This document shows, in pieces, positions 1 through 4,861 of a stretch of DNA of 40,027 nucleotides. Numbering within the stretch: the first letter of the stretch is position 1; each line of letters starts with the position of its first letter. The position numbers and the translations under genes are program-made. The notes under the pieces were generated by a model, which was not told the DNA's origin, made no database searches, and saw nothing but the letters and a program-made list of their open reading frames with translations. Origin of the DNA: Bacteroidales bacterium (lineage in GTDB: Bacteria > Bacteroidota > Bacteroidia > Bacteroidales > UBA10428); NCBI GenBank assembly GCA_016938235.1, contig JAFGVA010000052.1, positions 1 through 40,027 of the forward strand. Reading direction: 5' to 3'.

Positions 1-9
1 ATATGGCGG

Positions 10-27
10 TCCCGATAATTATCGGGA
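10..27. repeat. 18-bp palindrome in the tRNA-Leu D-loop
   Basis: TCCCGATAATTATCGGGA is a perfect palindrome. It sits between GGCGG and TGGTAG, where a tRNA-Leu normally reads GGCGG-AATT-GGTAG. It differs from the copies at 77-94 and 4704-4721 only in the two central bases (AT instead of GC). Confidence 0.9.
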
Positions 28-76
28 TGGTAGACGCGCTGGTCTCAAACACCAGTGCCTTCGGGCGTGCCGGTTC

Positions 77-94
77 TCCCGATAGCTATCGGGA
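77..94. repeat. 18-bp palindrome in the tRNA-Leu T-loop
   Basis: TCCCGATAGCTATCGGGA lies between the two T-stem strands. It replaces the usual GATT of the T-loop (GGTTC-GATT-CCGG becomes GGTTC-palindrome-CCGG). The copy is identical to the one at 4704-4721. Confidence 0.9.
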
Positions 95-115
95 CCGGCT
101 CTGGGTACTAAAAAG

Positions 116-148
116 CCTCTGAAATTCAAAACTTCAGAGGTTTTTTTT
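116..148 (+). terminator. Intrinsic terminator after tRNA-Leu
   Basis: The stem CCTCTGAA (116-123) pairs with TTCAGAGG (133-140), with a 9-nt loop, followed by eight T (141-148). It ends the tRNA-Leu transcript before the recombinase gene. Confidence 0.9.
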
Positions 149-4681: not shown

Positions 4682-4745
4682 GGTTCGTTCGTCTAGGGGT
4701 TAGTCCCGATAGCTATCGGGAACCAGGTTTTTGATGAAAACCACT
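4682..4745 (+). pseudogene. Broken tRNA-Glu copy with an inserted palindrome
   Basis: Bases 4682-4703 match the first 22 bases of the intact tRNA-Glu at 4785 except for one change (GGTTCG for GGTCCG). At the D-loop, where the intact gene continues GACGCCAGG, this copy has the palindrome TCCCGATAGCTATCGGGA (4704-4721) and then ACCAGG. After CCAGGTTTT it diverges: GATGAAAACC (4733-4742) is the reverse complement of the GGTTTTCATC expected in the anticodon arm. The variable, T and 3' acceptor regions are missing, so it cannot make a tRNA. Confidence 0.8.
4704..4721. repeat. 18-bp palindrome in the tRNA-Glu pseudogene
   Basis: TCCCGATAGCTATCGGGA is identical to the copy at 77-94 and is again placed in a tRNA loop region, here the D-loop. 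Confidence 0.9.
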
Positions 4746-4784: not shown

Positions 4785-4856
4785 GGTCCGTTCGTCTAGG
4801 GGTTAGGACGCCAGGTTTTCATCCTGGTAACAGGGGTTCGATTCCCCTACGGACTA
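4785..4856 (+). tRNA. tRNA-Glu (TTC)
   Basis: A complete cloverleaf is visible: acceptor GGTCCGT with ACGGACT (a G-U pair at position 1:72), D arm TCTAGGGGTTAGGA, anticodon stem CCAGG/CCTGG around TTTTCAT giving anticodon TTC, and T arm AGGGG-TTCGATT-CCCCT. The discriminator base is A4856. CCA is not encoded. It is transcribed from the promoter at 4622 through the broken upstream copy and is followed by a terminator. Confidence 0.95.
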
Positions 4857-4861
4857 CAACT

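Follow-up and report, generated by a model that had tools for sequence, protein, structure and literature searches.

Hairpin-bearing tRNA copies beside intact tRNA genes and small GIY-YIG nuclease genes in Bacteroidota

Introduction

Can a tRNA gene that carries a perfect palindrome in each of two loops still serve as a tRNA, and if not, what kind of sequence is it? The question is raised by the first 110 nucleotides of a Bacteroidales contig (GenBank JAFGVA010000052.1, assembly GCA_016938235.1), of which positions 1 to 40,027 were analysed and are referred to here as the window. The contig (C136) belongs to a 5.22 Mb draft genome in 239 contigs (G000). Mobile DNA is well known for settling at tRNA genes, and the known guests there mostly rely on integrases. 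Our comparison of the locus with its own genome, its genus and other Bacteroidota points to a different kind of guest. With a probability of roughly 0.6, we read positions 1-110 as a spare, non-functional tRNA-Leu(CAA) copy that most likely forms the distal end of an element built around a GIY-YIG nuclease gene on contig C80 of the same genome.

Results

The hairpin-bearing tRNA-Leu(CAA) copy

Two 18-bp palindromes inside a tRNA-Leu(CAA)-like sequence, as described in the original prediction, are present at the start of the window (Table 1). Alignment with the intact gene of the same genome (C80:75251-75333, called by ARAGORN) is near-perfect, with identities of 8/9, 49/49 and 16/16 outside the inserts. 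The inserts are self-complementary and sit in loops, where they merely lengthen the arms, as had been proposed; loops or whole arms turned out to be recurring hairpin sites in other copies. Short loop stretches have indeed been replaced, but the replaced letters, judged against the C80 gene, are AAT and GACC and not AATT and GATT. The first base of the contig falls inside the acceptor stem of the copy, so that nt 1-4 are absent, and there is one mismatch within nt 5-13. The putative intrinsic terminator behind the copy, a hairpin followed by a T-run, was read directly from the sequence and is unlike the one behind the intact C80 gene.

Table 1. Features of the tRNA-derived loci in the window.
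Feature	Position	Strand	Remarks
Disarmed tRNA-Leu(CAA) copy	1-110	+	Spans approximately nt 5 to beyond the 3' end of the gene; aligned to the intact C80 gene
18-bp palindrome TCCCGATAATTATCGGGA	10-27		In D-loop, replaces nt 14-16 (AAT)
18-bp palindrome TCCCGATAGCTATCGGGA	77-94		In T-loop, replaces nt 66-69 (GACC)
Putative intrinsic terminator 3' of the copy (hairpin, then T-run)	115-148	+	Read directly from the sequence
Truncated 5' tRNA-Glu copy, interrupted by a palindrome and followed by a second small hairpin	4682-4742	+	Matches 12 of the first 13 nt of the intact tRNA-Glu
18-bp palindrome TCCCGATAGCTATCGGGA in the truncated tRNA-Glu copy	4704-4721		Third palindrome of the window
Intact tRNA-Glu(TTC)	4785-4857	+	ARAGORN; Rfam RF00005, 61.8 bits

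A search of the window for TCCCGATANNTATCGGGA, with up to three mismatches permitted, returned three sites, all of them exact, against 0.10 expected. None of 100 shuffles reached three, and the palindromes are therefore not a product of chance. Positions 1-110 are not called as a tRNA by ARAGORN, nor by Rfam up to E=1. In the minimum-energy RNA fold the D-loop palindrome pairs with the T-loop palindrome and no cloverleaf is predicted; in this model, cloverleaf folding is lost.

Very probably, the copy no longer works as a tRNA. The suggestion that it functions with its hairpins kept or removed runs against both this predicted pairing and the intact gene on C80. The latter is a second tRNA-Leu(CAA) in the gene count, and the window copy is thus not the sole gene able to read UUG. 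Elsewhere, too, hairpin copies generally adjoin an intact gene for the same tRNA. The plain alternative that had been named alongside, a pseudogene, suits the window copy but misses a recurrent, phylum-wide class that is linked to GIY-YIG nuclease genes.

Behind the copy lies a tyrosine recombinase gene (226-1053; Pfam PF00589 and PF13495, with NF040815 (XerA/integron-integrase) just above its cut-off and TIGR02249 below). Imperfect direct repeats GTGGGGTGTARGTGRTA at 170-192 and 1091-1113 flank the gene, and 170-1113 is possibly a single-gene cassette. An integrative element using this recombinase and a tRNA-Leu attachment site was also considered; no uninterrupted tRNA end is present at the join.

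Partial tRNA copies in the genome and genus

The window holds a second case, in which a truncated tRNA-Glu copy, interrupted by a palindrome, begins 103 nt ahead of the intact tRNA-Glu. Genome-wide, CCCGATANNTATCGGG occurs at 15 sites, and its reversed pattern at none. By reading, 11 of the 15 lie in tRNA-derived sequence: two in the window's Leu copy, and the other nine directly ahead of an intact gene of matching tRNA type as identified by ARAGORN (Pro, Leu twice, Met, Asn, Arg, Glu, Pro and Val). The remainder comprises a second, ambiguous site by the tRNA-Asn, two sites on C115 outside tRNAs and one on C9 that is only T-arm-like.

A search for partial 5' copies near G000 tRNAs found 19, three of which are the start of another intact tRNA. 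Among the 16 left, upstream of intact tRNAs, 15 are followed closely, within 52 nt, by a perfect hairpin with a stem of 6 bp or more, and that of the last (Ser) is imperfect. On the same count, random windows score 9.7% in G000 and 7-13% overall, and intact tRNAs of five genomes score 12/40 (G000), 8/29, 10/35, 10/33 and 10/34. The corresponding values for 5' copies in members of the same genus are 7/10 in G001, 9/11 in G002, 3/4 in G005 and 0/2 in G007, the last two of which say little because intact tRNAs themselves often score hairpins.

The sequence of the hairpin varies. Upstream of the intact tRNA-Cys of G000 (L039, G000:C27:48278), a truncated copy of 47/48 nt is repeated three times in tandem and carries a different palindrome, TCCGCCGGTTGGCGGA. 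A double hairpin of 75-80 bp occupies the D-loop of truncated tRNA copies in G001 and G002 (L251, L293, L281, L295, L309, L316 and L370); it begins CTCCGA or TCCCGA and mostly ends TCGGGA. The tRNA-Gln(CTG) loci of G002 (L321) and G001 (L376) are an exception to the hairpin rule, with an upstream 5' copy at a similar distance that has no D-loop insert. Two further G000 loci, L028 (Pro TGG) and L047 (Ser GCT), have 3' partial copies downstream of the intact gene with a common motif, GATGAGAAC..GGTTCGAAC..CATGAG..CGAATAATCC.

The pattern TAGCTCN{12,30}TGGTTAGAG matched in 12 of 392 genomes of the order, and by eye only the G000 match is a D-loop hairpin insert; the search is a weak test, finding just one of the known copies of G000. 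D-loop inserts of any sequence were rejected as a general kind, the other matches being chance or tRNA duplications by eye. Two contig pairs (G000:C74 with G002:C58, and G000:C212 with G002:C69) are equally long with tRNAs at identical coordinates, which suggests cross-bin contamination.

Distribution across Bacteroidota

Scanning named genomes for GCTC followed by the palindrome gave at least 119 stretches. Judged by their titles, nearly all belong to Bacteroidota lineages; L213 is a Chlorobiota MAG and the title of L148 is unspecific. Among the matches listed, an intact tRNA starts within 300 nt downstream on the same strand at 73 of 146 palindrome places (62 stretches), one place has a tRNA upstream only and 72 have neither; the GCTC of the search pattern biases these counts toward D-arms and their strand, not toward a position upstream of an intact tRNA. 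Nucleotides 1-13 of the tRNA in question are matched perfectly in 53 of the 73 tRNA-preceding places listed and at 12/13 or better in 62. The TAGCTC of a D-stem still stands ahead of the palindrome in 25 of the 72 listed places that have no tRNA.

The class is not confined to draft genomes. In a complete chromosome (CP012155.1, L198), 11 tandem 5' copies stand 80 nt apart with about eight nuclease units. Further tandem cases are found at L160 and L199, and the class also occurs in records whose titles name Aequorivita and Salinimicrobium strains.

Some palindromes lie in other settings. At nine Flavobacteriaceae loci (L128, L146, L156, L158, L165, L170, L175, L185 and L195) the palindrome stands between sequences like TTGTTGGAGCTC and AGCGACTG, with no tRNA near. 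G034 contains a dispersed repeat of roughly 150 bp by eye, with the palindrome at a fixed place (L087, L090, L091, L094, L096, L098, L102 and L104). Near the end of stretch L149 the palindrome is followed by GTGAGGAAAGTCCGGGC, a context that we take to resemble RNase P RNA (rnpB); an Rfam search of 17 loci reported no RNase P RNA at L149, where the stretch ends 166 nt on.

Small GIY-YIG nuclease genes beside tRNAs

GIY-YIG genes were found inside the L199 repeat unit. The catalytic domain (PF01541) was confirmed in two proteins, with E-values of 1.2e-9 (C80) and 5.4e-10, and neither the C80 nor the L199 protein has a PHROGs match at E<=0.01. With these two proteins as queries, 11 of the 119 palindrome stretches listed gave a match, each within about 330 nt of the palindrome. 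The C80 protein had 31 matches in 19 of 60 genomes, its own included. We took 44 distinct small GIY-YIG loci, leaving out some lower-scoring matches and long UvrC-like frames. An ARAGORN tRNA on the same strand lies within 300 nt at 20 of these (21 if the tandem array L253 is scored by its first unit), with the gene behind the tRNA in 18 cases and before it in two. In the control, none of 23 distinct RAYT transposase loci is within 300 nt of a tRNA. At the other 24 GIY-YIG loci there is no ARAGORN tRNA within 300 nt of the matched gene; some of these stand at contig ends, in the array, or with tRNA fragments recognisable by eye (L253, L254, L263, L268 and L271), and others do not. L254, L263 and L271 show by eye the same order of pieces.

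That order takes two forms. In the first, an intact tRNA and a terminator are followed by a small GIY-YIG gene, then by a 3' fragment of that tRNA in which a hairpin replaces a loop or arm, and finally by a terminator. The second is its mirror: a 5' tRNA fragment with a D-loop hairpin, a GIY-YIG gene or short remnant, a leader and the intact tRNA. The GIY-YIG frames have roughly 80-150 codons. We hand-picked 26 loci among those with a tRNA ahead of the gene, excluding loci cut by contig ends. A 3' fragment of the same tRNA lies behind the frame clearly in 19 and weakly in two (L160 and L259); at L130, L262, L417, L424 and L430 no distal tRNA fragment was found.

Many of the 3' fragments have a visible hairpin, which replaces the T-loop at L250, L140 and L198, the anticodon arm at L257, L258, L259 and L265 and the D-loop at L402 and L412, and involves two arms at L129, L254 and L089. 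The intact tRNA keeps the arm that the hairpin replaces in the spare copy, i.e. the presumed target. On a tree of 23 nuclease proteins the hairpin arm changes five times, compared with a mean of 7.9 after shuffling, and 12-17 of 500 shuffles are as low; arm labels were set by eye, two-arm cases were placed in group A and the decayed C189 gene was excluded. This modest signal suggests that hairpin position follows the nuclease tree.

Within the genus, small GIY-YIG genes counted by frame length number 6, 7, 3, 1 and 0 in G000, G001, G002, G005 and G007. They run roughly alongside the partial-copy counts of 16, 10, 11, 4 and 2 in these five members. A Salinimicrobium pair (L136/L201) differs by the nuclease gene, and truncated tRNA copies are present in both; no clean empty site was found among the loci compared, this pair included.

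Position of the window relative to the C80 nuclease

On C80, the GIY-YIG homology begins 66 nt behind the intact tRNA-Leu(CAA), and the frame is open to the contig end. In the protein tree the C80 nuclease pairs with the one from Aequorivita vladivostokensis (L140; support 96/82), whose gene has a tRNA-Leu ahead and a T-loop hairpin copy after; the window's Leu copy likewise has a T-loop hairpin. A parallel is provided by tRNA-Phe in the same genome. Behind its tRNA-Phe, C199 breaks off within the first part of a GIY-YIG gene (81 nt, 97.5% identical to the gene on C189), and C189 carries this decayed gene and a Phe 3' fragment with a T-loop hairpin. C80 and C136 both end at the feature concerned and do not overlap. 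Given the L140 grouping with its T-loop hairpin, and a tRNA-Phe element split over two contig ends, C80 followed by C136 is the likely order, and the window probably holds the far, disarmed copy of the C80 nuclease element.

Discussion

The combined layout of intact tRNA, small nuclease gene and hairpin-bearing tRNA fragment recurs, and it multiplies in tandem. The best reading of the class is a SegB-like homing-endonuclease element on tRNA genes, whose layout is seen directly and which would spread by homing. By analogy with SegB, the nuclease would cut tRNA genes. Repair of the break would duplicate part of the tRNA while one copy stays intact, and the hairpin, by occupying the broken arm, would mark and destroy the cut site in the spare copy. 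Tandem multiplication of the units, followed by decay, could leave hairpin-tRNA remnants that lack the nuclease gene, and nuclease-free units such as the window's truncated tRNA-Glu may be remnants of this kind. It is a more tentative proposal, to which we give somewhat less than even odds, that this is a phylum-wide selfish class in which the GIY-YIG nuclease cuts one tRNA arm and the spare copy is immunised there by a hairpin of nearly free sequence, which would be produced or copied in a way not known for other homing elements. Several observations are counterpoints to the nuclease model: the intact tRNA still has the presumed target, many hairpin-bearing 5' copies have no nuclease gene, palindromes occur away from tRNAs, 24 of the 44 small GIY-YIG loci are without an ARAGORN tRNA nearby, and 5 of the 26 hand-picked loci are without a distal fragment.

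The most probable of the alternatives, which we still consider unlikely, combines two unrelated processes. Ordinary tandem duplication and decay could have produced the copies, a tiny independent mobile palindrome (REP/SDR-like, with ends TCCCGA/TCGGGA) could enter hairpin loops of any kind and persist in dead tRNA copies, and the GIY-YIG genes could be bystanders. Away from tRNAs, palindromes are seen by eye in the loops of other hairpins (L053, L057, L065 and L100) and between direct repeats (L066, L086 and L103), and at L014 and L099 they are nested in one another. The double hairpin of G001 and G002 has similar ends, and L384 is apparently a plain tandem duplication, its 33-nt leader included. 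Such a combination would, however, have to accommodate the hairpin behind 15 of the 16 G000 5' copies, far from the rates in random windows and intact tRNAs, as well as the several unrelated hairpin sequences that fill equivalent tRNA arms and the apparent dependence of arm position on the nuclease tree.

A mover for a loose palindrome was sought in RAYT. The scan covered 24 loci, 23 of them distinct (L115 and L397 are the same place), and TCCCGA..TCGGGA was found in none of the 23, which led us to reject RAYT as the palindrome mover. By inspection, RAYT counts do not track palindrome counts either, with eight hits and no palindromes in G010, and two weak hits and 15 palindromes in G000. One further RAYT gene outside the 23 (G034:C135:19202-19546) has a palindrome about 400 nt behind it (L090), within the dispersed repeat, and for this reason a RAYT may play a role in G034. 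Tandem duplication of leader plus tRNA was rejected as a general account, since the sequence before the first copy at L002/L003 differs from the leader of the intact gene. We also considered a processed-tRNA (RNA) intermediate as the source of the copies, which start at nt 1.

Less probable still is that the hairpin tRNA pieces are selected RNAs, with a regulatory effect on the intact tRNA, as decoys or leaders, or with the role of an antidote RNA to the nuclease. The near-identical tandem units of L198, with 11 copies, the frequent retention of stems and a tRNA-like shape, and the position of the units next to the intact tRNA and on its strand would all fit a selected RNA. The tRNAs that have copies nonetheless differ between species of one genus, with nearly none in G005 and G007, and the spacers of G000 share no common sequence between loci by eye. 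That the feature is an assembly artefact is very improbable: it does lie at a contig end of a fragmented draft whose equally long contigs in common with G002 indicate imperfect binning, but the same class is present in the complete chromosome and in the Aequorivita and Salinimicrobium strain records. Least credible is a working tRNA-Leu(CAA) with hairpins removed or tolerated, for which the perfect anticodon arm and most of the body (49/49) speak, against an intact gene elsewhere, the missing nt 1-4, the acceptor mismatch, the predicted fold that joins the two palindromes and the plain truncation of other class members.

Comparison with known systems

The nuclease-element reading invites comparison with several known kinds of element. 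Integrative elements use tRNA genes as attachment sites, keeping the tRNA intact and leaving a partial copy on the other side. The units described here differ in being about 45-420 bp long, in having no integrase and in carrying a hairpin in the partial copy. The small dispersed repeats (SDR) of Nostoc, attributed to Elhai in 2008, are reportedly tiny hairpin elements of about 20 nt with nested insertions. If so defined, they resemble the palindrome as dispersed hairpins of about 20 nt with nested copies (15 G000 sites; L014 and L099), whereas their sequences are said to be different and they belong to another phylum. We know of no link between SDR and tRNAs or a nuclease.

REP/REPIN sequences with their RAYT transposase are likewise short dispersed palindromes, single or paired (PMC3733652). 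They differ from the present case, in which 23 distinct RAYT loci lack the palindrome and one other has it about 400 nt away. No GTAG or CGTC tag was seen by eye at the palindrome end, where the flanks are tRNA or other local sequence. The mitochondrial hairpin elements DHE/RHE share with our elements the repeated single or double hairpins with conserved stems; they are organellar, and the available sections of their description mention neither a tRNA-restoring layout nor a linked nuclease (PMC2800124).

The closest system among the best literature matches listed, none of which describes hairpin-disarmed tRNA copies with a nuclease, is SegB, a free-standing GIY-YIG homing endonuclease of T-even phages whose gene adjoins tRNA genes (PMC13096335). 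SegB promotes tandem amplification of the tRNA-nuclease segment, a process that in the view of the authors begins when SegB cuts and microhomologous parts of the tRNA 5' region and the segB 3' region recombine (PMC13096335). Both systems thus place a GIY-YIG gene by tRNA genes and multiply in tandem, but SegB resides in a phage and not in a chromosome, and the accessible part of that report does not mention hairpin-disarmed tRNA copies (PMC13096335).

As far as our searches reached, the recurrent class of hairpin tRNA copies in Bacteroidota is not yet described. If our reading is true, an element that uses a nuclease and leaves behind one working tRNA together with a twin disarmed by a hairpin would represent a strategy unlike that of integrase-borne guests. 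Such an element could account for the tandem tRNA fragments of Bacteroidota and for contigs that break at their tRNA genes, and would offer a natural test bed for the genomic origin of perfect short palindromes. On bacterial chromosomes, it would be the counterpart of SegB, the tRNA-amplifying nuclease of phages.
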